This document shows, in pieces, positions 19,859 through 29,533 of a stretch of 34,475 nt of DNA (position 1 is its first letter; every line of letters begins with the position of its first letter). The notes under the pieces were generated by a model. That model saw only the letters and a list, made by a program, of their open reading frames with translations. It did not search any database and was not told the DNA's origin. A program made the translations under genes and the position numbers. This DNA is from Halobaculum sp. CBA1158 (GTDB taxonomy: Archaea; Halobacteriota; Halobacteria; Halobacteriales; Haloferacaceae), in contig NZ_CP090374.1 of NCBI RefSeq assembly GCF_021431925.1, forward strand, positions 1-34,475. The letters are read 5' to 3'.

Positions 19859-20214
19859 GAATCAGCACACAGCTCGCAGTCTTCTTCATCGCCTTCAACC
19901 TGTTTGGAGGCATGATGGTCGGGATGGGCGTTGCCGGAGATCTCGGCCTAAATCTTGAGACTGGGAGCCCCGATGAGATCGAACAGGCTACCGAGAAAGA
20001 CGATGTCGGGCTCGGAAACTCAGTCGGTGGGACGCTGTTCGGGATGTACAACACGCTGACTGATCAGGTCGGCATCATTGTGAACACGATCGCCCCAGGA
20101 TTCGCGATGCTCAAGCTGTTCCTTCCCAACGCCATCGTCGACCCATTCGCCGCGCTCGCGGGTGTGTTCGTCATCGTCGACCTGCTAAGCTACGCCCGGG
20201 GGACTGACCTATGA
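19855..20214 (+). CDS. Membrane protein, 119 aa
   Basis: A hydrophobic N-terminal helix (about 6-28), a polar section with acidic residues (about 33-60), then hydrophobic stretches at about 73-90 and 95-112. Overlaps both neighbours by 4 bases (ATGA). No family recognised. Confidence 0.66.
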   Translation: MRISTQLAVFFIAFNLFGGMMVGMGVAGDLGLNLETGSPDEIEQATEKDDVGLGNSVGGTLFGMYNTLTDQVGIIVNTIAPGFAMLKLFLPNAIVDPFAALAGVFVIVDLLSYARGTDL

Positions 20215-20543
20215 GTTGTTCCGGTGCAAGCGGGTACTCCGAGGCGTTGGCCGCGATGCAGCAGGCGCTTGCAGATCAGGCGTTCGTCGATGCGTTCACC
20301 TGTCTGTACGCGAATTCGATGGGTGGGCTCATCGTCGTCGGAACGCTGCTTTGGTTCACGATCTCGACGATGAGCTACGCTCGGACAGGCTCGTTCGCCA
20401 TGCCGGCAGTCTACACGCTGATCCTCGGCGGCGGGGCGCTTAGTCAGGTTGCGACGCCTGTCCTCGGCTTCGCGAGCATCTTACTCCTCGGAGCGTTCGG
20501 ACTGCTCGCGGTCCTCATCGCTCGGCGTATAGAGACGCCATGA
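20211..20543 (+). CDS. Membrane protein, 110 aa
   Basis: Three hydrophobic segments (about 38-55, 64-80 and 84-104) follow a polar N-terminus with two cysteines (C3 and C26) that may pair outside the membrane. Start and stop overlap the neighbours. No family recognised. Confidence 0.65.
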   Translation: MSCSGASGYSEALAAMQQALADQAFVDAFTCLYANSMGGLIVVGTLLWFTISTMSYARTGSFAMPAVYTLILGGGALSQVATPVLGFASILLLGAFGLLAVLIARRIETP

Positions 20544-20890
20544 GCCCGACCGTTTGGCTCATGGTGTCGGTTGCTGTTGGATTGGTCGTGGGATACCTAC
20601 TCCACGAGGTCGCTCACTACGCGCCGCTGAAGGCCGCTGGCTACGATGCTACAGTCTCGTGGTGGCCGCCGCAAGTGGAGTTCGAATCTGAGTTGCCAGC
20701 GCCGCCGATTGTCCGCGTAGCTGCCGTTGCACCGGCGGTCGTTGGGGCGACGTTGATCGGCGCGGGGGTCGTGTTCGTGAATCAGCTATCAGTATTCACG
20801 TTCGGCTTCCTGGTTGGTGTTTGCATCCGGCTTTGCTGGCTCTCTCAGGTTGACAGAGTAATCGCAGTTCGCGGGATGTTGACTAAATAA
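20540..20890 (+). CDS. Membrane-embedded HExxH protein, possible metalloprotease
   Basis: The 116-aa protein has HEVAHY at residues 22-27 at the end of its first hydrophobic helix, which is where site-2-type (M50) and related membrane metallopeptidases carry the zinc-binding HExxH. Two further hydrophobic segments lie at about 57-80 and 83-103. The third zinc ligand typical of M50 (NxxPxxxxDG) is not seen, so a protease is possible but unproven. It ends the rightward operon and overlaps the convergent small gene by 8 bases. Confidence 0.6.
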   Translation: MSPTVWLMVSVAVGLVVGYLLHEVAHYAPLKAAGYDATVSWWPPQVEFESELPAPPIVRVAAVAPAVVGATLIGAGVVFVNQLSVFTFGFLVGVCIRLCWLSQVDRVIAVRGMLTK

Positions 20891-21014
20891 GCCCCGCGGA
20901 GTAGAGAACCGATCCTAAAAATAACACGAATAACACGAAGAGGAGAGTCACGACATACTTTGGAACCAACCGATCAAGGAAGGCTCCAGTCGTCTGAATG
21001 AATCGTTGTAGCAT
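20883..21014 (-). CDS. Small single-helix membrane protein, 43 aa
   Basis: ATG at 21014 gives a short amphipathic start and a hydrophobic helix (VTLLFVLFVLFLGSVLYSAG). The longer upstream frame is not acidic and is rejected. It converges on the HExxH gene, overlapping by 8 bases at the 3' ends. Confidence 0.45.
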   Translation of the reverse strand: MLQRFIQTTGAFLDRLVPKYVVTLLFVLFVLFLGSVLYSAGLI

Positions 21015-21063
21015 AGCGTTGAAAGGACAGCGCTCTGTAAAATAAATACCGCCGAGGGCTACG

Positions 21064-21360
21064 TCAGTCCTTAGTGCTCGCGATCTGTTCCACGCCGTCA
21101 GCGATTGCGTGCAACGTCGCTGAAATATCGTCGACATCCTCCCGGCACGCCGCCTCCGTCGCAAGTTGATCGCTCAGGCGCATGGTCGCCATCCCGCGGA
21201 CCATGCTCTGCGGGCTCGTGCCCTCGGGAAACGTCGCCGCCAGGCGCACCAGCCAGGCGGCGTCGATCGTCTGCTCCCAACTGACCGACTGCTCGGGGCG
21301 GCCTTCGTCGACGCACCGTTGCGCGTATTCGACCAGCGTCTCGTCGCGTCGTTGCTCCAT
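21064..21360 (-). CDS. Small acidic helical protein, 98 aa
   Basis: ATG at 21360 gives a 98-aa protein that is acidic and helical, with no motif I recognise. An in-frame GTG at 21444 would add 28 basic residues and is less likely. A 20-bp palindrome lies 33 bp before the ATG, and the transposon begins 85 bp before it, probably separating the gene from its TATA box. Confidence 0.6.
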   Translation of the reverse strand: MEQRRDETLVEYAQRCVDEGRPEQSVSWEQTIDAAWLVRLAATFPEGTSPQSMVRGMATMRLSDQLATEAACREDVDDISATLHAIADGVEQIASTKD

Positions 21361-21392
21361 ACCGCGATTACGACCGCGAAACTGATGTATCC

Positions 21393-21412
21393 TGCTGTAG
21401 CCGGCTACAGCA
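21393..21412. promoter_or_regulatory. 20-bp perfect palindrome, candidate operator
   Basis: The core GCTGTAGCCGGCTACAGC is perfectly self-complementary, and one further base pair matches on each side. It lies in the leader of the 98-aa gene, where a dimeric repressor could bind; in RNA it could fold as a short hairpin. Confidence 0.5.
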
Positions 21413-21445
21413 TTACCTTCCCGTTTCGGCCTCCTGTAACCCACA

Positions 21446-21482
21446 CAGTCCTCGGTAATTGAGCCTCAATTCTCAAATTCAG
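21446..21482 (+). repeat. Left terminal inverted repeat of the transposon
   Basis: 31 of 37 positions match the right repeat. It includes the transposase stop codon at 21466-21468. Confidence 0.8.
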
Positions 21483-23352
21483 GATGACCTTCGAGAAGGA
21501 ACGGATAGCCGTCGCCGAACACCTCTCGAACGATGTTACTTCGAACTGATAGGTCGCGTACTTCGCCAACGTCGATGTCCTCCATGTCGAGCAGCATGGC
21601 GACCATGAACTGATTCGCTGTGAACGGGTATCGGCCCTGGTCGTCCTTCACCGGCCGGTCGTTCTCGACGGCGTACGTCACGTTCGACGCCATCCACATC
21701 GCGTTGTAGATGAACGCCATGTTGGCGATGAACTCCCGCTGACTCCGTAGCTCGCTCGCAGACTTCGCCGTGAAGTCGTGCTTCATCAGCCGATACGCCG
21801 TCTCTATCGTCCACCGCTGCCGGTACCGCCGCCCAATCTCCAGGCCGCCGAACTCCTCGGGATCGAGATTCGTGTAGTACACCTCCCAATTCCCCTTGTC
21901 CTCCGTGCCCGTCTCGGCCCGCTCGATCCGCTTCTTCGACGGCATCGTGATCAGCCACGACTCCGCCTCACTCTCGGGGACTACCTCACCGAGGCGGACA
22001 TCGTACCCCGCCGCGTTGTAGTCCAAGTCGTAGTGGATGGCGGCCTCCTTCAGGTTGTCAATGATGGCCGGCGGGCGGGCGCGCAGTCGGCTGATGAACT
22101 TGAGGTCGTGTTCTTCGAGGCAGTTCTGCATCCCGCGGCCGTAGAACCCGCCGTCCATGCAGACGACGTCCGGTTCGACGTAGTGCTTCGCGTACGTCAG
22201 CATCTCGTCTATCTGGTGCTCGATGTTCCCGCGCCGCTGGATGCTCTTCGCGGCCAGCGTGACGGGCATCTCGACGTTGGCGAGGCTGATGCTGGCGATC
22301 TGGAACGCGAAGGCGCTCCCGGCCTTCTGGTCCACACCCTCCACGCCGATAGGCTGGTCCTCGTGCGGGATGTCGTCGCGGTCGAGCCGCTTCCCGTCCT
22401 CGTCTTTCTCCGTCGAGTGCCGCCCGTACCACATCAGGTTGGTCAGGTCCATAGCGAGGTCGGACCGGTCCGGGAGATAGCCGTACTCGTCGAGAACCAT
22501 GATGATGCGCTCCAGGGCGGCGAGGTACATCTTCCGCAGTTCGAAGGTGTCGTACTCGCGGAGCTGGTTCCAGAGTGCTTTGAACCCGGGCGCGTCCCGG
22601 TAGTAGAAGTACGGCAGGAACCGCAGCGAGGCCTCGGCATCGTTCGGGTGAATGTTGCATAGTCCGGCGATTTCCATCAGCTTGAACAACTGCCATTTCG
22701 GGTACGTGACCCTGGACTCGTCGCGGTCCAACTGGATGAATTGGTACGCGAGCTTCCGCATTTCCCGGGAAATGAGCACCAGTTCGGGTTCCCCGCGCCC
22801 GTCCGCGGTCGCGGCGGGGAGCGTCACGATCTCGTCGTTGTCCTCCAGCTGCTCCACGATCTCTCGGAGGCGGTGGCTGACGTCCGGGCCGATCTGCGCC
22901 TCCACCTCTTCGCTGATCCGCTCGATGGTGTTCTCGGTGACGACGTCATTTAGACCGAGACGCTCGGCAGCGCCGTCTTTGAGTTCGTCCTCGATGGCGT
23001 AGTCTTTCGAGGAACTGAGCGACCGGTACAGGAACAGGCGAGCGGCGTCCTCTTCGTCGAGCTTGTACCAGTTCTTCTCCAGGCTCCAGAAGGGGACGTT
23101 TCCGGTGTAGAGGTCGAGTTTCCCGACGGCTTCCTCCGGCGAGAGGCCTTGATCGAGGTAGCGGAGGAGTTGCGTCTCCAGGTCGAGATTGCCTTCTATC
23201 TGCGTGATGAGCGACGGACCGGAACTGGATTCGGAGATGTCGAAGTCGTCGATAGAAGGCTCGTCAAGGTCGCTGTCGGAGTCCTCGGAGTCTTCGGGTG
23301 GCTCCAGAAAGCGGTCAGGCGTTCGTCCATCGATGTCCGGTTCCCGCGACAC
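21466..23352 (-). CDS. YREK-type DDE transposase, unusually long
   Basis: The 628-aa protein has the IS4-superfamily core: Asp302 (MDLTNLMWYG), Asp400 (CMDGGFYG) and the perfect Y-2-R-3-E-6-K signature at Y510, R513, E517 and K524. The core closely fits ISH3/IS4-like halophile transposases, but those are usually about 380-450 residues; here an acidic N-terminal extension of roughly 200 residues (with a disordered Asp/Glu/Ser start) is added. GTG at 23352 is the start: a TATA-like TTTTAAGTA lies about 30 bp upstream, giving a leaderless message of its own. Confidence 0.85.
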   Translation of the reverse strand: MSREPDIDGRTPDRFLEPPEDSEDSDSDLDEPSIDDFDISESSSGPSLITQIEGNLDLETQLLRYLDQGLSPEEAVGKLDLYTGNVPFWSLEKNWYKLDEEDAARLFLYRSLSSSKDYAIEDELKDGAAERLGLNDVVTENTIERISEEVEAQIGPDVSHRLREIVEQLEDNDEIVTLPAATADGRGEPELVLISREMRKLAYQFIQLDRDESRVTYPKWQLFKLMEIAGLCNIHPNDAEASLRFLPYFYYRDAPGFKALWNQLREYDTFELRKMYLAALERIIMVLDEYGYLPDRSDLAMDLTNLMWYGRHSTEKDEDGKRLDRDDIPHEDQPIGVEGVDQKAGSAFAFQIASISLANVEMPVTLAAKSIQRRGNIEHQIDEMLTYAKHYVEPDVVCMDGGFYGRGMQNCLEEHDLKFISRLRARPPAIIDNLKEAAIHYDLDYNAAGYDVRLGEVVPESEAESWLITMPSKKRIERAETGTEDKGNWEVYYTNLDPEEFGGLEIGRRYRQRWTIETAYRLMKHDFTAKSASELRSQREFIANMAFIYNAMWMASNVTYAVENDRPVKDDQGRYPFTANQFMVAMLLDMEDIDVGEVRDLSVRSNIVREVFGDGYPFLLEGHPEFEN

Positions 23353-23380
23353 GTTTCCCGGACAATACAGCAGTTCGGTA

Positions 23381-23388
23381 CTTAAAAC
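23381..23388 (-). promoter_or_regulatory. TATA-like box for the transposase
   Basis: TTTTAAGTA on the minus strand lies 25-35 bp before the GTG at 23352, the distance expected for a leaderless haloarchaeal message. It sits in the 42-bp gap after the last passenger gene. Confidence 0.45.
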
Positions 23389-23394
23389 GAACCG

Positions 23395-23832
23395 TCAGTA
23401 CACCGAATTCCGGGCCCATGCCGGGTACTCCGTGTAGACCGCGTCGAGTAGGTCCGTCAGGTCCTCGGTCGGGTACTCGTCGAACACGTCCCGAGCAGCT
23501 GCGCGGAGATCGTCGTGTTCGGCGTGCCCGAAGACGTCGTCGATGGCCGGACCGGCGCTGTAGTGGTATCGGATCCGGCCGTCGTCGTCCTTGATCTCCT
23601 CCTCGGTGACGTACTGGTTCTCGATGCAGTAGTCTACGACCGGGTAGAGGCCCTTGGCGAACGGGCCGTAGTCGCCCGCCTCGAAGACAAACCAGTTCTC
23701 TCCGACCTCCTGCTGGAACGCAAACATCAGCTTCTGGATGTACGTTCGCCCCTCCAGCTCGTGCGGGGCTTCATCGAAAAGGATGCACAGCGCCATCTCC
23801 TGGACGTGGCGCGGTGCTGGTTGCGGCTTCAT
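23395..23832 (-). CDS. Panacea/SocA-like protein, possible antitoxin-type partner
   Basis: The 145-aa protein has TYIQKLMFAFQ (about 30-40) followed by FVFEAGDYGPFAKGLYPVVDY (about 47-67) and a C-terminal YPAWARNSVY. The order Q-K-L..F followed by GP...LY resembles the Panacea (SocA/DUF4065) fold known as the neutralising half of diverse toxin-antitoxin pairs and as a proteolytic adaptor. The likeness is by eye and weak in places. It is the last passenger gene, just before the transposase, and overlaps the zinc-ribbon gene upstream by 4 bases. Confidence 0.5.
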   Translation of the reverse strand: MKPQPAPRHVQEMALCILFDEAPHELEGRTYIQKLMFAFQQEVGENWFVFEAGDYGPFAKGLYPVVDYCIENQYVTEEEIKDDDGRIRYHYSAGPAIDDVFGHAEHDDLRAAARDVFDEYPTEDLTDLLDAVYTEYPAWARNSVY

Positions 23833-24056
23833 ATCCCCACGACCTCGTCGAGTACGATCTCTTCTGAGACGAAGCCACCGGTGACGTTCGGGCGGTCTTT
23901 CCCGATGGTCAGGACGCCCTCAACGTTGCACTGGCGGCATTGGTATCGAACCATCCGTTGCCAAGCCCGGTCCGGGTTTTCTGCGTCCCACGTTGATTTA
24001 GGTGCCATCGAACCGCCGCAGTGAGTGCATCGTCGGTCGGGTTCATCTTCCTTCAT
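23829..24056 (-). CDS. Zinc-ribbon protein, 75 aa
   Basis: CTHC at about residues 10-13 and CRQC near 40-43 form a two-pair zinc ribbon, followed by an acidic tail. ATG at 24056 is 7 bases after the previous stop. Function unknown; protein or nucleic-acid binding are both possible. Confidence 0.6.
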   Translation of the reverse strand: MKEDEPDRRCTHCGGSMAPKSTWDAENPDRAWQRMVRYQCRQCNVEGVLTIGKDRPNVTGGFVSEEIVLDEVVGI

Positions 24057-24063
24057 CGAGGTG

Positions 24064-24282
24064 TTACCCCCACGGATCCGGGCCGTAGCTACAGCCCCGG
24101 ATCGGCTCCCAATCGCTCCAGTCCGTGTCCATCGCCTCTTTCAGCGGCATCGCGTCGTAACTGATCGGAAGCATCAGTCGGCAGTTCTCACAGACGACGC
24201 CGAGTACGGCTCGTTCGTAGCCGATTTGCGTAGTCGTCGAGTCGCATCGAGGACAGTCACCGCCGTCTTCTCCGGGACTCAT
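24064..24282 (-). CDS. Zinc-ribbon protein, 72 aa
   Basis: CPRC (about 10-13) and CENC (about 30-33) form the ribbon; a Trp-rich acidic tail (DTDWSDWEPIRG) follows. ATG at 24282 is chosen because it overlaps the upstream peptidase stop (ATGA). Confidence 0.6.
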   Translation of the reverse strand: MSPGEDGGDCPRCDSTTTQIGYERAVLGVVCENCRLMLPISYDAMPLKEAMDTDWSDWEPIRGCSYGPDPWG

Positions 24283-24818
24283 ATTCCGAGCCACTCCTTG
24301 CACTGCTGGATGTAGTTACGGTTGTTTTCCCGGTACTCCAGCGCCCTCTGGCAGATGTTCGGCCACTCTTCACGAGGTACCGACGGCTCACCGAGATACG
24401 GAACGCGGTCCTCGTCGATCACATCGGGTGGCATCCGCGCGACCGAGTAGATCGAGCAAAACTCTTCGCTGGTCTTGGCGACGTCCTCGCCGTTCTCATG
24501 GCGAACGCGGATGGCGACGTGGCCGAGTTCGTGCCAGAGCGTGACGTTCGTCGTGTGCTCCTCGGGCGGCAGGCAGATGAGCCGGTTGTAACCGAACGCT
24601 TGCGCCTGTGCGTCCGCGTTCTCGTAGAGAACACCGACGTTGATGGTCTCGTGAGCCAGCGCCGGGAAGTCTTTCAGTGCGATGGGGAGTCGCTTCTTGA
24701 TGCTCTCCAGTACGTCCTCGTCGGCCTGACCGCCGAAGTGTTCGAGGACACGCCAAGCGGCGAGACCGCGAACCTCTCGACCGTCGCGTTCGTAGTTGAT
24801 TGAAACACGCTGGCTCAT
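24279..24818 (-). CDS. ImmA/IrrE-like zinc metallopeptidase
   Basis: The 179-aa protein has TLWHELGHVAI with the zinc site His96-Glu97-x-x-His100, followed by SEEFCSIYSVARMP (117-130), which matches the E...FA..LMP pattern of ImmA/IrrE peptidases and supplies the third ligand (Glu118 or Glu119). Characterised members cleave phage or stress repressors. Here the likely substrate would be a regulator of this transposon or its host replicon (inference). ATG at 24818 overlaps the stop of the 41-aa zinc ribbon upstream. Confidence 0.68.
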   Translation of the reverse strand: MSQRVSINYERDGREVRGLAAWRVLEHFGGQADEDVLESIKKRLPIALKDFPALAHETINVGVLYENADAQAQAFGYNRLICLPPEEHTTNVTLWHELGHVAIRVRHENGEDVAKTSEEFCSIYSVARMPPDVIDEDRVPYLGEPSVPREEWPNICQRALEYRENNRNYIQQCKEWLGI

Positions 24819-24940
24819 GCTGCCTCCTCCGTCGGATCCCACCCGACGTTGTACCGCTCGCAGTCGGGGTTCGTGCAGGTCACTCGATCCATCCCGTCGA
24901 GCGGGTAGACGTCGGAGCCGCAGTTTGGACAGCCGTTCAT
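24815..24940 (-). CDS. Tiny zinc-ribbon protein, 41 aa
   Basis: MNGCPNCGSD starts a 41-residue protein with CPNC (4-7) and a second pair (CTNPDC, 22-27). Both ends overlap neighbours by 4 bases (ATGA), which strongly supports it despite its size. It is likely a free-standing zinc ribbon. Confidence 0.6.
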   Translation of the reverse strand: MNGCPNCGSDVYPLDGMDRVTCTNPDCERYNVGWDPTEEAA

Positions 24941-25191
24941 AGCTCTTCGAGCCTCCACCGAAGCTGGATGCACAAGGCGGCGAGATCGTCCAATTCGGCT
25001 GCGATTCGTGCAGCGTCACCGTCCTCGTGCTCTGCCTCCAGGTACGCCTGTGCGAGTTCTCCCTGTTCTTCCTGCATTGCCAGAAGGAGCGTGTCGATCT
25101 CTTGGAGACCCCACTCTTCGACGTTCTCTTCGGCCCTCTCTCGCCAGTACGCCAGTTCCATCTTTGCCGAGGTCTGGTTTACGTCAGTCAC
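24937..25191 (-). CDS. MazG-like all-alpha NTP pyrophosphohydrolase-type protein
   Basis: The 84-aa helical protein has QEEQGELAQA (about 40-49) and a later ELDDLAALC (about 65-73), the EExxE then ExxD spacing of MazG/dUTPase-type all-alpha nucleotide pyrophosphohydrolases. These remove unusual or excess nucleotides and are common in phages. The protein is at the short end of the family, so activity is uncertain. Overlaps at both ends place it in the operon. Confidence 0.6.
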   Translation of the reverse strand: MTDVNQTSAKMELAYWRERAEENVEEWGLQEIDTLLLAMQEEQGELAQAYLEAEHEDGDAARIAAELDDLAALCIQLRWRLEEL

Positions 25192-25514
25192 GCCGACCCC
25201 TCCATCAGCGTGTACTGCTCGTGCTGGCCGGGCTCGATGTCGTCCTCATCAAGAATCTGGAGACAACCACGGCAGTACGTTCCGATGATCTCCTCCTCGT
25301 CTTCATCGGGGATAGTCAACGTCTGCCCCTCCGCTCGCTGGTGGCCGCACCCATCGCACCGAGTGGCGTTGTCGGGGTGTGGGTCCGAGTACGGGTAGAT
25401 GTCCGCGCAGTATGGACACCCACCGTCAAGGGTTGGCTCGTCCTGCGGCATCCCGCAGTGGTGGCATCGGGATTGTTCAGTCGCGGTCGCATCACCCCGT
25501 CGCACCCCGGACAC
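25188..25514 (-). CDS. Zinc-ribbon protein with several CxxC pairs, 108 aa
   Basis: Four CxxC pairs (CHHC, CPYC, CDGC, CRGC) suggest two zinc ribbons. GTG at 25514 is the only plausible start in frame, and it overlaps the next gene upstream by about 200 bases in another frame. The two may be one gene split by a missing base: the span 25188-25648 is one base short of a multiple of three and the upstream frame ends with another complete CxxC pair. Confidence 0.5.
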   Translation of the reverse strand: MSGVRRGDATATEQSRCHHCGMPQDEPTLDGGCPYCADIYPYSDPHPDNATRCDGCGHQRAEGQTLTIPDEDEEEIIGTYCRGCLQILDEDDIEPGQHEQYTLMEGSA

Positions 25515-25648
25515 CGGAGCACGTCACCAGTCTTGTAGAGTGAGTCCCCGGCCCACGTCGATCCGCAGTGCTGGCACATGACGGGGTTCTCGTCGCCGTG
25601 TGCCCACTTCCGTGGTTGATTGAATTCAGAAATCTCAGGTTCGGGCAA
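25316..25648 (-). CDS. N-terminal zinc-ribbon part, probably frame-shifted against the next gene
   Basis: The 110-aa frame begins MPEPEISEFNQPRKWAHGDE and has a clean zinc ribbon (CQHC and CPGC). After about residue 60 it turns basic and repetitive (Thr/Arg-rich), unlike haloarchaeal protein, while the other frame there is acidic with good CxxC pairs. I read the true N-terminus as joining the 25188-25514 frame through a one-base shift between about 25480 and 25515. Confidence 0.5.
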   Translation of the reverse strand: MPEPEISEFNQPRKWAHGDENPVMCQHCGSTWAGDSLYKTGDVLRCPGCDGVMRPRLNNPDATTAGCRRTSQPLTVGVHTARTSTRTRTHTPTTPLGAMGAATSERRGRR

Positions 25649-25856
25649 GGGTCGGCACCTCCTTCACATCGCTAATCTCTTGACGGGTGAGCTTGCCGAA
25701 CATCGGTTTGTCGTACCAGTTCTGCACCAGACCGACAGCGACCACGTCACCGTTGTGACAGTCGTCGCAGATCGGTCTGTGCTTCTCGTCTACGTAGACG
25801 AGCCGGACACTGCCGAACGGTTCGCCACACCCCTCACACTGAAGTAACTCGCTCAT
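25635..25856 (-). CDS. Zinc-ribbon protein, 73 aa
   Basis: CEGC (7-10) and CDDC (about 30-33) form a ribbon with a small beta insert; the tail is polar. Overlaps neighbours by 14 and 4 bases. Function unknown. Confidence 0.6.
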   Translation of the reverse strand: MSELLQCEGCGEPFGSVRLVYVDEKHRPICDDCHNGDVVAVGLVQNWYDKPMFGKLTRQEISDVKEVPTLART

Positions 25857-26095
25857 GCGTGGAATGTTACCTCAACGCCGTTGTATTCGAGCACGCGGTC
25901 GCCGCACTCCGGGCACTCGGTCGGGATGTGGTCCGCGAATTGAATTCGGTCGTAGCCATCTACTTTGACGTCCGACGGGTCGATCTCGACGCTGGTCAGC
26001 CACCCGTCGCAGAGGTCGGGCTCGTACTCGTGAATCATGCAGCGGATAGCGAGGTTGTTCTTCCGCAGCTCGTCGGGGACGCGGTCGAAGCTCAT
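25853..26095 (-). CDS. Small protein with C-terminal CxxC, 80 aa
   Basis: The N-terminal half is polar with isolated cysteines (C19, C29); the C-terminal half has TECPECGD and a strand-rich end. Overlaps both neighbours (ATGA). No family recognised. Confidence 0.58.
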   Translation of the reverse strand: MSFDRVPDELRKNNLAIRCMIHEYEPDLCDGWLTSVEIDPSDVKVDGYDRIQFADHIPTECPECGDRVLEYNGVEVTFHA

Positions 26096-26382
26096 GCCTC
26101 AACCTCCACGCCGTCGTAGAACTCTTCGAATCCATCGGGGAGGGTCTCACGAGCCCACTTGAAGGCATCCTCGTGATTCATCCACTCCGGGAGTTCGGCG
26201 AGTGCCTCGCGTTTGTAGCAGACGCCAATTACTTCCCTTCCGTCTTCGGTCTTGACGATGACGCGCGGCATCCACGTCTTCGGCTTCTTGCCGGCAATTA
26301 CCGTTCGCTCGCCGTCTTCGTCCTCCCAAGCGGAGTTCCCTCCTTGACACCGCATCAACGATACGTATTTTACAGTCGTCAT
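26092..26382 (-). CDS. Unknown 96-aa protein
   Basis: ATG at 26382 starts MTTVKYVSLMRCQGG; the sequence is acidic with alternating beta and helix and a conserved-looking MPRVIVKTEDGREVIG stretch near 40-55. The longer frame upstream (to 26919) is rejected because it crosses the structured non-coding stretch and loses acidic composition. No TATA box is visible right before it. Confidence 0.55.
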   Translation of the reverse strand: MTTVKYVSLMRCQGGNSAWEDEDGERTVIAGKKPKTWMPRVIVKTEDGREVIGVCYKREALAELPEWMNHEDAFKWARETLPDGFEEFYDGVEVEA

Positions 26383-26410
26383 GTTCTCACGGCGTAGGTC
26401 GCCACCCGAG

Positions 26411-26437
26411 TGGGCCAATCGAGATTTGAACTCGATT
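26411..26437 (-). other. tRNA-like T arm with acceptor-like 3' strand
   Basis: The minus strand has a 7-bp stem around the T loop TTCAAAT, followed directly by TTGGCCC and A, the layout of a tRNA 3' end. No matching 5' GGGCCAA with D and anticodon arms was found upstream. Confidence 0.3.
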
Positions 26438-26597
26438 CGTGGCTTCTCTTCACCGCGGGGCAGTCCCTTTACCTCGCGGATGCACCGGTCCGGGTGCCGC
26501 ACAGCGGCGCTCCCGGGCGGCGTGCCGGGGCGTCCCCCGGTTACGGGACATCCCGCGACTCGGTTCATTCCACCACGCACGTCCATGTGGCCCAAGT

Positions 26598-26622
26598 GCC
26601 CGCCCGGGGAGTCGAACCCCGA
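26598..26622 (-). other. tRNA-like T arm with acceptor-like 3' strand
   Basis: CGGGG-TTCGACT-CCCCG is a canonical T arm followed by GGCGGGC and A. The expected 5' partner GCCCGCC is not found at a normal distance. Candidate tRNA 3' fragment or RNA motif. Confidence 0.35.
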
Positions 26623-26920
26623 CGCACGCGACCGTCTCCCCATCGCCCCGTTCCGGTGTGCCGTGGTAGGCGTGAGGGGCTGCGCCGGTTGCTGCGTGAG
26701 CAGCGGCCCGTCACGGGCCATCGCCGACGGTGTCGGGTACGCTTGGTCGCGCTCCACCGCGGTGCGGGCTCGCAGGAGATAAGCGGCCAGAGCCCCGAGC
26801 GTGCTTGTAGAGCGCGGGTAAATGGTTAGTGGATCCAGGGTCAGCGCCGCGGCTTCTTCTCTCGCTCGCGGGCTGCCTGAACGCGCTCGACTCGGGTGCA
26901 TCTGATCGCTCACCTCCAAG

Positions 26921-26959
26921 GCCCCGGCGCGGAGTCGAACCGCGCTGCTCCAACGGGGC
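26921..26959 (-). other. Minimal tRNA-like fold (acceptor plus T arm only)
   Basis: On the minus strand GCCCCG, an 8-nt linker TTGGAGCA, a 6-bp T arm (GCGCGG-TTCGACT-CCGCGC) and CGGGGC fold into an acceptor/T-arm minihelix of 39 nt lacking D and anticodon arms. It begins exactly at the stop codon of the 42-aa gene, so it would be in the message. The same layout occurs at 33297-33337. Confidence 0.45.
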
Positions 26960-27087
26960 TACGCCGCCTCAATCGTCTTCAGTACGTCCACGATGGCCCC
27001 GCACTCGGGGCACACCGGGTAGTGGTCGTCGCGCTGGCAGTCGTCACCAGCCCACTCGCAGCGAGTGCAGCGGAAGTCAGGCGTCAT
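26959..27087 (-). CDS. Tiny zinc-ribbon protein, 42 aa
   Basis: MTPDFRCTRCEW begins a 42-aa protein with CTRC, a middle Cys, and CPEC. ATG at 27087 is one base after the previous stop. Its stop codon touches the tRNA-like fold. Confidence 0.58.
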   Translation of the reverse strand: MTPDFRCTRCEWAGDDCQRDDHYPVCPECGAIVDVLKTIEAA

Positions 27088-27088
27088 T

Positions 27089-27484
27089 TCAGGCCCTCTC
27101 CACATCTTCGCTGGAGACGGCGACCATTCCGGGGTCGGCGAAGAACGCCGCCTTGGCGATGCTGATGTTGTCGAGCGTGTCCGCGTCGGTCACGATGCTG
27201 TCGCCTTCGCAGGTCATGACGACTACACCGCTGCGGTGCATCCAGATCGAGACGCCGACTCCCGCGTGGTTCCAGTGCTTGGAATGCAGGTCACCGGGTG
27301 CGCTGAGAATCGAGTCGTCTTCCTCGATAGCCGCCCGAACTCCCTTCTTCAGTTCAATTAGTTGGCGGGCCGTCAGGGCGTCCTCGGGCGCGTCGCCGGG
27401 GTGGACCCAATTGAGGAGTTCCGCCTTCTTCTGGCTGGTCTCGTCTTCTTCCTCGGTCGGTCGCTGAGCCACTTCTGCGCTCAT
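27089..27484 (-). CDS. First gene of the passenger operon, 131 aa, unknown
   Basis: ATG at 27484 gives an acidic mixed alpha/beta protein with no cysteine motifs. A Trp/His-containing strand region (HWNHAGVGVSIWMHRSG) is the most distinctive part. A TATA-like element centred near 27510 and the operator at 27517 place transcription start at the ATG, so the message is probably leaderless. The longer frame upstream is rejected. Confidence 0.6.
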   Translation of the reverse strand: MSAEVAQRPTEEEDETSQKKAELLNWVHPGDAPEDALTARQLIELKKGVRAAIEEDDSILSAPGDLHSKHWNHAGVGVSIWMHRSGVVVMTCEGDSIVTDADTLDNISIAKAAFFADPGMVAVSSEDVERA

Positions 27485-27516
27485 ATCAACCCATTCAATC
27501 CCGATGTACTTAGTAG

Positions 27517-27533
27517 TTGTGCATACTGCACAA
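27517..27533. promoter_or_regulatory. Operator in the divergent passenger promoter
   Basis: TTGTGCA-TAC-TGCACAA is a perfect 7-bp inverted repeat. It lies between the shared TATA-like element (GTACTTAGTAG, about 27505-27515) and the rightward ATG at 27539, where the winged-helix protein encoded there would repress itself and, from the other side, the passenger operon. Confidence 0.6.
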
Positions 27534-27538
27534 GTAGT

Positions 27539-27868
27539 ATGGATGGGCAGACCCCAAAGGCAAAGTGCGTAGGACTGGTTACTTTGCACATGGCCCGCGC
27601 ACAGCCAATGCACACACCGATGGATGAGGACGATCTCCGCCCCGCAGATGAGGCTATCCTCGACGTTCTACAGCAGGGGCGCGCGACCAAGGGCATGCTC
27701 GTAGACGAGTCCGGCTACTCACGGAACACGATCTACAACCGACTGGAGGTTCTGGAGGCCGCGGGCCACGTCCGCGTCGTTCACGAATCGACCCGCCTCT
27801 TCGAGCTGGTCAGCGACCCGCGCGACGGTAGTCAGAAATCAGATACATCGGCCGAAAACGGCGACTGA
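27539..27868 (+). CDS. Winged-helix transcriptional regulator of the transposon
   Basis: From ATG 27539 the protein has 109 residues. The core DEAILDVLQQGRATKGMLVDES followed by GYSRNTIYNRLEVLEAAGHV (about 37-75) is the winged-helix type common to haloarchaeal virus and plasmid repressors; a near twin is the regulator at 32495. A TATA-like box about 30 bp upstream makes this a leaderless start; ATG 27590, 27608 or 27620 are alternatives. It diverges from the passenger operon across a palindromic operator. Confidence 0.72.
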   Translation: MDGQTPKAKCVGLVTLHMARAQPMHTPMDEDDLRPADEAILDVLQQGRATKGMLVDESGYSRNTIYNRLEVLEAAGHVRVVHESTRLFELVSDPRDGSQKSDTSAENGD

Positions 27869-27912
27869 ATTACTCGGGGACAACGTACGAAATGAAGGAC
27901 CAACTCACGAAT

Positions 27913-27949
27913 CTGAATTTGAGAATTTACGACCAATTACCGAGGACTG
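27913..27949 (-). repeat. Right terminal inverted repeat of the transposon
   Basis: Exact complement of the left end in 31 of 37 positions. A degenerate relative of its outer part (AATTACTCGGGGAC) also lies at about 27868-27881. Confidence 0.8.
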
Positions 27950-27955
27950 CACACG

Positions 27956-27968
27956 AAAATATATAATA
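27956..27968 (-). promoter_or_regulatory. AT-rich TATA-like element beside the transposon
   Basis: AAAATATATAATA lies 7 bp outside the right end. If the transposon is removed, this element is about 95 bp before the ATG at 21360 and properly oriented for that gene on the minus strand. It could also serve rightward transcription. The 27950-28137 gap holds no supported gene. Confidence 0.35.
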
Positions 27969-28137
27969 CCAATCTGGGAATATGTTGGCGGAATCGAGTT
28001 TCACTTTCACCGCGCGCGGCTCGGCTTAAAGGCGGAGTGGACTCGATCCAAACGAGGTGACAACAATGGATGCGCGTGGGACCGAGAACTGCGGTCGTGG
28101 TGGTGTTACAGGCGCGAGCGAACGCTTAGCAACTCAG

Positions 28138-28563
28138 TCAAGAGTATTGCGACCAAGTGTACTGCAACTCAATCTGGTCCTCGAACACAACTCGATCATC
28201 TGCGTTGATACCGACGATAGTCAGGCGCGGTTGGTCCGCATCATCCGGACTCGCGACAACCCCGATGTCGCGAATATCGCTCTCTTCCCACGAAAAAGAC
28301 GCCAGATCATCGCCCGGTTCAACATTCAAAAAGGCGATGACTCGACCATCGTTCTTCAGACCAATACGCGAAATATCGGTTCCATCACCGATTGTTTGTG
28401 TGAACCAAAGCGTAATACGAAGGGTTCCGTGAATGTGGGCTCGGCTTGTCCGTTGCCACTCAGCTTCGGCGCTGTCGAGTGCATCCGAGGCGTCCAAGAC
28501 AGTCTTGGCCGTGGCATCGATTCGCGGTCCAAAGTAGTAGCGGTAGAGCGCCGTCAGTCCCAT
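28138..28563 (-). CDS. Unknown 141-aa protein
   Basis: The acidic protein is rich in beta strands after a helical N-terminus (ALYRYYFGPRIDATAKTVLD), with no recognised motif. It is separated by 52 bp from the small gene upstream, so may have its own promoter. A long opposite-strand frame here is basic and rejected. Confidence 0.62.
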   Translation of the reverse strand: MGLTALYRYYFGPRIDATAKTVLDASDALDSAEAEWQRTSRAHIHGTLRITLWFTQTIGDGTDISRIGLKNDGRVIAFLNVEPGDDLASFSWEESDIRDIGVVASPDDADQPRLTIVGINADDRVVFEDQIELQYTWSQYS

Positions 28564-28615
28564 TTGAGCAATGGCCGTAGGCAGTTACCAAAAAACTCCG
28601 GACGCCAAATGAGAA

Positions 28616-28867
28616 TCAGACGCGCGCGACGGCGATCGTCGCCGTGCCGCCCTGTTGGCTGCTGTCGGAGAGGGCAGCGTCGCGCCGCGCGAGCACGTCG
28701 AGCACGGACGGCAGGACGACCGTGTCGTCGATCGCGATCTCGATCGTCAGCGACGCGCGCAGGCCGGCGTCCGGCTCGACGAGATCAGTATCGAGCACGC
28801 TGGGGAGTGACTCCAGCTGGCGCGCGGTCGGGATCGCCTCGGGGCGGCAGGTCTGATGTAGGCTCAT
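28616..28867 (-). CDS. Small acidic protein, 83 aa
   Basis: ATG at 28867 overlaps the stop of the 35-aa zinc ribbon (ATGA). The protein has a beta-rich middle (ASLTIEIAIDDTVVLPSVLD) and no cysteine pairs. Function unknown. Confidence 0.58.
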   Translation of the reverse strand: MSLHQTCRPEAIPTARQLESLPSVLDTDLVEPDAGLRASLTIEIAIDDTVVLPSVLDVLARRDAALSDSSQQGGTATIAVARV

Positions 28868-28971
28868 GCGACAGCCTCGTGAGCGGCGTCGCAGTCGTCG
28901 CACAGCCCGACGGGGCCGTTGGAGGTCGTGGCGATCGGATCGCCACAGCACGGGCACGTGAGCCGCCTCAT
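28864..28971 (-). CDS. Tiny zinc-ribbon protein, 35 aa
   Basis: MRRLTCPCCGDP and a later CDDC give a minimal two-pair zinc ribbon. Both ends overlap neighbours by 4 bases (ATGA), supporting it strongly for such a short gene. Confidence 0.55.
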   Translation of the reverse strand: MRRLTCPCCGDPIATTSNGPVGLCDDCDAAHEAVA

Positions 28972-29111
28972 TGGCTCGCGTACGGTGCCGCCTCGGCGAT
29001 GCGCTTTCGGCGGCGTGCTCGGCGGTCGCCGGCGTCCGCGAGCGGTTCGTCGTCGGTACGCTTATCGGTCGTGTCGCCCTCAGTAACAGGCGACGGGCTT
29101 TCGGTCGACAT
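28968..29111 (-). CDS. Small charged protein, 47 aa
   Basis: ATG at 29111 starts an acidic N-terminal half and a basic stretch (DRRARRRKRIAEA) near the end, a possible nucleic-acid-binding helix. It is the first gene after the structured leader and overlaps the zinc ribbon by 4 bases. Confidence 0.5.
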   Translation of the reverse strand: MSTESPSPVTEGDTTDKRTDDEPLADAGDRRARRRKRIAEAAPYASQ

Positions 29112-29126
29112 AGCTGGAACCGAGCC

Positions 29127-29193
29127 CACCCGTCGCCCGCCTGCTGTAACAGGCGGGCAGTTTCACCGTGAAACTGCTATAGAGCGACGGGTG
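29127..29193 (-). promoter_or_regulatory. Three-way-junction RNA leader (or ssDNA origin) before the 47-aa gene
   Basis: A perfect 10-bp outer stem (29127-29136 with 29184-29193) encloses two hairpins: stem 29135-29143 with 29150-29158 (9 bp, loop CTGTAA) and 29157-29166 with 29168-29177 (stem up to 10 bp). Bases at the junction are shared and can migrate. A TATA-like TTTTATGG (about 29222-29229) would start transcription near 29197, so the leader would be little more than this fold, ending 15 bases before the ATG. Confidence 0.55.
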
Positions 29194-29260
29194 AACTCAA
29201 TAACTTCTAACGTACGAACCACCATAAAACCTTTCCAACGTCGGAGAAACATCCGAGTGT

Positions 29261-29533
29261 ATGAGCACTCGACGGGGGCCGAAAATGAGTGATCCGAGCC
29301 ACGATCAAGTCTTACAGTTCGTTCGTCAGCAGGATTGTCCGTTTGTGACGACTCGCGAGGTTGCGGAGCGATTCGATACAGTCACACGCCGGACGATCAA
29401 CAAGCGCCTAAACGACCTTCATGACGACTCGGACCTGCAAAAGCGAGAAATCGGCGCGCGGTCTGTCGTTTGGTACCTGCCCAGTCAGTCAGAGCCAGAC
29501 AACACCGCTTTGCCCTCGTCGGAAAGCCAGTAG
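29261..29533 (+). CDS. Winged-helix DNA-binding protein, 90 aa
   Basis: The core TTREVAERFDTVTRRTINKR (about 26-45) followed by LQKREIGARSVVWYL is a helix-turn-helix with wing. ATG at 29261 is near leaderless relative to the TATA-like CCATAAAACC at about 29223-29232; ATG 29285 is an alternative. It overlaps the convergent regulator by 49 bases at the 3' end. Confidence 0.68.
   Translation: MSTRRGPKMSDPSHDQVLQFVRQQDCPFVTTREVAERFDTVTRRTINKRLNDLHDDSDLQKREIGARSVVWYLPSQSEPDNTALPSSESQ

Follow-up and report, generated by a model that had tools for sequence, protein, structure and literature searches.

A probable cargo-carrying transposon in Halobaculum and its haloarchaeal relatives with differing passenger genes

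Insertion sequences (IS) of the ISH3 family are 1.2-1.5 kb long, end in CRGT, duplicate 4-5 bp of their target and encode a transposase only, whose YREK motif is incomplete and reads Y-(2)-R-(3)-E-(3)-R, and members of the IS4 family duplicate 7-13 bp (PMC2266710). Passenger-carrying transposons of the bacterial kind, the transporter IS, have been described as undetected in archaea (PMC6563490); one case with a single passenger gene has been suggested (PMC10544981). Here, we analyzed a 34,475-nucleotide stretch of Halobaculum sp. CBA1158 (contig NZ_CP090374.1, positions 1 to 34,475; below, the window), in which positions 21446-27949 very probably constitute one complete copy of a haloarchaeal family of unit transposons of the transporter-IS type. 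No description of this transposon family was found in the open-access literature.

Ends, layout and transposase of the element

The element comprises 6504 bp between inverted ends, which form the best inverted repeat within positions 20000-29500. The two 37-nt arms are complementary at 33 of 37 positions (89%), slightly more than the 31 counted in an earlier note made from the sequence of this DNA, and the outer 16 and inner 15 positions are identical, as that note had stated, with matches at two of the six central positions. By a rough estimate, an inverted pair of this quality would arise by chance in the searched region with a probability on the order of 1e-8. The tetranucleotide CACA, which had likewise been seen before, abuts the outer side of both ends. 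When up to two mismatches are allowed, the outer 16-mer of the ends occurs only at these two sites in the whole 3.32-Mb genome, and no further copy of the element was found elsewhere in this genome. As in a bacterial transporter IS, IS-type ends and a transposase are combined with passengers that have no evident part in transposition; a single pair of ends encloses the transposase and about 14 unrelated passenger open reading frames (ORFs). The passengers form a minus-strand operon. At the far end of the element, a winged-helix gene points in the opposite direction, and a palindrome lies between it and the operon; the regulator with operator that the earlier note had placed there is borne out by the TrmB-type helix-turn-helix (HTH) match of the gene and by the operator-like character of the palindrome. 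In contrast to the bacterial transporter IS, the family is haloarchaeal, and its cargo is replaced wholesale between close copies.

The transposase ORF is intact and reaches within 20 bp of one element end. The presumed catalytic residues D302, D400, and E517 are present and conserved across an alignment of 15 family members. The YREK motif, already recognized in the earlier note, is complete (Y510-(2)-R513-(3)-E517-(6)-K524) and conserved in relatives, and the ISH3-type Y-(2)-R-(3)-E-(3)-R is present alongside it. The best NCBIfam match is the ISH3 model NF033541 with 46.1 bits, which is far below its cutoff of 225, and the relatives tested score at most 119; the IS4 model gives 43.3 bits against a cutoff of 115. 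Nearly all copies have CAGT at both termini, which fits the ISH3 consensus, and the target duplications in the window and its relatives are 4 bp long, within the range of ISH3 and outside that of IS4. The original designation as IS4-type therefore stood only in part: the DDE_Tnp_1 fold family and the complete YREK agree with it, but the short duplication, ends that are not of the CAT type, and the IS4 scores below cutoff do not. From ISH3, in turn, the element differs in its 6.5-kb length, the 628 residues of its transposase, the complete YREK, the low score and the multi-gene cargo. We use the label ISH3-related, and neither ISH3 nor IS4, because the ends and the 4-bp duplication fit ISH3, the YREK fits IS4, the size fits neither, and the score is below the cutoff; of the two families, ISH3 is the nearer one to the transposase, ahead of IS4 sensu stricto. 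In a tree, the window transposase and its close copies form a fully supported clade, followed by G212 and L046, with deeper branches that are long and unsure. Among viral contigs, no relatives of the transposase were found.

Independent copies and exchange of cargo

Relatives were sought in genomes of 84,980 species, which yielded six, and in 391 haloarchaeal genomes, which yielded more distant ones as well; as one genome per species was sampled, all family counts are minimum values. At least seven other genera have this transposase and these ends, with differing gene sets. Complete copies were found in Natrarchaeobius (6379 bp, duplication TATT/TATT) and on plasmids of Halobellus (7576 bp, TAAA/TAAA) and Halorientalis (7580 bp). 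The copies of Natronosalvus and Halorubrum Hd13 are split over contigs, and their outer flanks agree (CTAT and ACTA, respectively). G212, a relative at 38% identity, measures 4775 bp and is flanked by ATAG. In every full copy, the two end types are distinct from each other. The elements of Natrarchaeobius and Natronosalvus are 98.5-99.2% identical and lie at different sites, and the match ends exactly at both element ends. Likewise, the 7.6-kb elements of Halobellus and Halorientalis are 90% alike over the element plus two bases, and nothing else matches in the stretches compared. This comparative evidence, the same element at different sites in two genus pairs, argues that the whole unit moves between genomes with its cargo, in agreement with the earlier proposal of a haloarchaeal transposon that moves an entire gene block.

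The cargo itself differs widely. At the DNA level, conservation between the window element and its relatives is confined to two parts, the transposase together with its end and, on the opposite side, some 40 to 125 bp; the interior cannot be aligned. For the window passengers other than the HTH gene, a tblastn search of the other copies found no counterparts. Natrarchaeobius and Natronosalvus carry a GAF/PAS/BAT/HTH_10 sensor-regulator and a DUF7344 protein, whereas the cargo of Halobellus and Halorientalis consists of a PAS/GAF sensor, a response regulator, and CapC with a Mur ligase of the poly-gamma-glutamate type, part of which is also found at Salinigranum. In Haloparvum, where an IS lies inside the transposase and one end is lost, NeuA-like and NeuB genes are present; in Halolamina, an asparagine-synthase-like gene adjoins a decayed transposase; G212 carries a GNAT acetyltransferase and G323 an alpha/beta hydrolase. 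On one side, the cargo module borders on the region just upstream of the transposase, and on the other it stops about 125 bp short of the element end. The 3' end of the window regulator gene overlaps the conserved subterminal DNA, as would be expected if the regulator had been captured up to the end sequence. Judged from these alignments, the content between the ends shows itself to be exchangeable cargo, and the passenger set of the window copy is not the family's own package. The earlier note had counted about thirteen moved genes, close to the number here (about 14), and had considered them possibly a defense or persistence package; other copies carry wholly different genes. The search for further copies and the comparison of their passengers, which it had suggested, confirm a mobile unit.

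In mechanistic terms, the transposase would bind the asymmetric ends, mobilize everything between them and insert with a 4-bp stagger, mostly at AT-rich sites. One could instead regard the region as composite: a short ISH3-like IS of about 1.95 kb would lie beside an operon unrelated to it, and another copy would have left the far inverted repeat as a remnant. The length and transposase-only content of typical ISH3 elements (PMC2266710) and the wholly different cargo between copies would be in line with such an arrangement. However, a closer second inverted repeat near 23390, named in the earlier note as evidence that would speak against the long element, is missing: nothing upstream of the window transposase resembles an element end, and none of the copies showed a second end close to the start of this gene. 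Together with the distinct end types in every full copy and the recurrence of whole 6.4-kb or 7.6-kb units at different sites, where the similarity breaks off at the element ends, this strongly disfavors a composite region, which we consider very improbable. Slightly less credible still is a decayed provirus or integrative plasmid in which the inverted ends are incidental. Its virus- or plasmid-like cargo, the tRNA-like sequences and the separate 34.5-kb contig would fit, but no replication or integrase gene was recognized between the ends, and relatives with the same transposase and end architecture carry unrelated metabolic and sensory genes.

Several observations count against a complete transposon copy in the window. 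Taken alone, its 4-bp duplication has a chance of 1/256, and the flanks of the Halorientalis copy are imperfect (TAGT/TAGC). An empty site of the window copy was not found, as its flanks were not detected in plasmids or in 129 family genomes; because of this and its single copy in the genome, the evidence for movement comes from the relatives and not from the window copy itself.

The transposon family serves as a general carrier of genes: its ends and transposase stay constant, and entire operons between them (surface polymer, sensory, sugar, virus-like, and CRISPR-derived genes) are replaced from genus to genus and from family to family. The spread of such islands on haloarchaeal plasmids and chromosomes could be explained in this way.

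Some further observations concern individual copies. The G212 element abuts the edge of a 124-bp near-palindromic repeat (L044:4272-4395) with tens of copies in that genome, whose genus is represented by one genome. The flank of the Halorubrum copy is mostly repeat, so that an empty-site comparison is uninformative. Two small elements with window-type ends and a MarR-like gene (L043:7635-8492, 858 bp, TAGA duplication; L074:5342-6492, about 1.15 kb) are 90-92% alike and are likely non-autonomous relatives in two genera. On the Salinigranum plasmid (L042:4787-6092), the CapC/Mur-ligase copy looks fragmentary, with no more of the transposase side left than its final 92 bp, which adjoin an annotated ISH3 family transposase.

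Remote relatives with HRAMP-like modules

Several remote relatives (22-31% transposase identity) are also large elements of the same layout, with CAGT ends and mostly 4-bp duplications. Five of them hold three contiguous genes, and in two, the best matches are Csm3/Cas7 and Cmr3/Cas5 (for proteins of the remote-branch module, Csm3 E=2e-4, Cmr3 E=9e-8, and TIGR03986 E=1e-3). The module seems to fit what has been published on HRAMP, a haloarchaeal CRISPR derivative without an array (PMC8730458), and we call it HRAMP-like.

Of 381 haloarchaeal genomes, 94 contain Cas7-like homologues. We compared 31 loci of group A (77-100% Cas7 identity) with 10 of group B (57-62%) as controls. In 30 of the 31 group-A loci, the last Cas5-like gene is followed by a transposon end 40-101 bp after its matched end, with agreement at 20-30 of 30 positions; this holds for none of the ten group-B loci, which agree at 13-15 of 30. 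Shuffled controls had a mean score of 15.4 and a maximum of 21 in 820, and three group-A loci with scores of 20-21 are weak for this reason. As the end consensus was drawn from some of the same group-A loci, full scores there arise by construction, and the test lies in the contrast with group B and the shuffles. Of the HRAMP-like loci scanned, 13 have the two ends together with a perfect 4-bp duplication, and in several of these the transposase is deleted or decayed. HRAMP-like Cas7/Cas5 genes lie inside CAGT-ended elements in L119, L120, L124, L127-L131, L135, L151-L154, L049, L050, L056, L078, and L086; their duplications are mostly perfect 4-bp NTAN, and an intact transposase is often missing. 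For L130 (5969 bp), the empty site is cleanly preserved in three sister genomes, where TTAA occurs once. In L119, which lacks a transposase, the first 16 end bases are the same as in G212, which is near the window clade. From the end positions, the duplications and the L130 empty sites, it follows that the HRAMP-like module is transposon-borne in group A, and this link makes the movement of such modules directly testable.

One might go further and see a broad haloarchaeal class of ISH3-related cargo transposons in which the HRAMP-like proteins of one branch belong to its own machinery, in target choice or transposition control, as an array-less archaeal counterpart of CRISPR-associated transposons. 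A Cas5/Cas7-like module between transposon ends is indeed common to both, on the haloarchaeal side in the remote branch only. However, no Tn7 proteins were seen, there is no sign that the module guides insertion, and the window copy does not contain it. We regard such a role as improbable. The simpler reading is that the module is defense cargo.

Genes and origin of the window cargo

The best-supported origin of the window cargo, which we would give about an even chance, is capture from an early-gene region of a halovirus or plasmid. The operon of small zinc-ribbon, ImmA/IrrE-like, and SocA/Panacea-like genes would then have been taken up together with the divergent winged-helix regulator. On a Halorussus vallis plasmid, the stretch that encodes the 94%-identical ImmA-like protein includes a tyrosine integrase as well as parts of the non-coding DNA with the tRNA-like halves, and no transposase is annotated in it. 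The gene of the 51% relative in the haloarchaeal virus HJTV-4, gp16, adjoins the terminase, and the window regulator matches the virus protein family phrog_38164. The cargo may act in replicon control or in competition between viruses and plasmids.

We consider it rather unlikely, if conceivable, that the passengers form a dedicated defense or persistence package (toxin-antitoxin-like, with Panacea and an ImmA-like protease) from whose spread the transposon itself would profit. It is true that one operon combines an HExxH protein of the ImmA type with SocA/DUF4065 relatives, and distant relatives of the element carry HRAMP-like modules, a presumed defense system. In contrast, PADLOC and Pfam scans of the window proteins tested recognized no defense system or toxin, the relatives of the cargo sit in virus early regions, and surface and sensory genes are found in other close copies. 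Among the passengers scanned with Pfam, only the HTH regulator was above cutoff. The Panacea-like assignment of the earlier note is weak, as it depends on the annotation of tblastn relatives, and its MazG-like protein is unproven: the ORF has a motif-like similarity only and no family match at E<=1. The features are compiled in Table 1.

Table 1. Features of the element in the window and the evidence for them.
Feature	Position	Strand	Evidence
Unit transposon, very probably complete, 6504 bp	21446..27949		inverted ends, CACA duplication, independent copies with same ends
Target-site duplication copy 1, CACA	21442..21445		sequence
Target-site duplication copy 2, CACA	27950..27953		sequence
Terminal inverted repeat, transposase side	21446..21482	+	inverted-repeat search, copy comparison
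Terminal inverted repeat, cargo side	27913..27949	-	inverted-repeat search, copy comparison
Conserved subterminal region, cargo-side end, ~125 bp	27824..27949		DNA common to Natrarchaeobius, Haloparvum, Halolamina, others; interior not
ISH3-related DDE transposase, 628 aa	21466..23352	-	DDE_Tnp_1 E=2e-9; NCBIfam ISH3 46 bits, IS4_1 43 bits; conserved motifs
SocA/DUF4065 (Panacea)-like protein, 145 aa	23395..23832	-	tblastn relatives annotated SocA/DUF4065, haloarchaeal plasmids; weak DarG-type matches
Zinc-ribbon small protein	23829..24056	-	CxxC pairs; sub-threshold zinc-ribbon matches
Zinc-ribbon small protein	24064..24282	-	CxxC pairs; sub-threshold matches
ImmA/IrrE-like HExxH protein, 179 aa	24279..24818	-	HELGH motif; 94% Halorussus vallis plasmid protein, 51% gp16 of HJTV-4
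Zinc-ribbon small protein, 41 aa	24815..24940	-	sequence
Possible MazG-like protein, 84 aa	24937..25191	-	EExxE...ExxD-like motif only
Multi-CxxC small protein, 108 aa	25188..25514	-	sequence; sub-threshold matches
Zinc-ribbon small protein	25460..25648	-	sequence
Zinc-ribbon small protein, 73 aa	25635..25856	-	sequence
Small protein, 80 aa	25853..26095	-	38% relative in L041
Small protein, 96 aa	26092..26382	-	ORF; no family match
Non-coding stretch, three tRNA-like T-arm/acceptor 3' halves in a row	26412..26944	-	partly kept on Halorussus vallis plasmid (L041:5838-6217)
Zinc-ribbon small protein	26959..27099	-	sequence
Small protein, 131 aa	27089..27484	-	36-45% relatives on Natrialbaceae plasmids
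Operator-like palindrome, 13-nt arms	27511..27539		sequence
TrmB-type winged-helix regulator; 3' end overlaps conserved subterminal DNA	27620..27868	+	TrmB E=2e-6; phrog_38164 E=5e-11

The window is the whole of its 34.5-kb contig (C4), which we describe as a little-known plasmid or virus-like replicon. A HerA-like ATPase gene begins at base 1, few recognizable proteins are encoded, and searches with parts of the window found no relatives in the plasmid collection. With regard to the non-coding stretch, Rfam had no match in 21000-28200, and a tRNA search without introns found nothing in the window; with introns allowed, it gave one weak call. A tRNA-like 3' half similar to those of the window adjoins the Cas7-like gene in L049 (L049:4550-4644).

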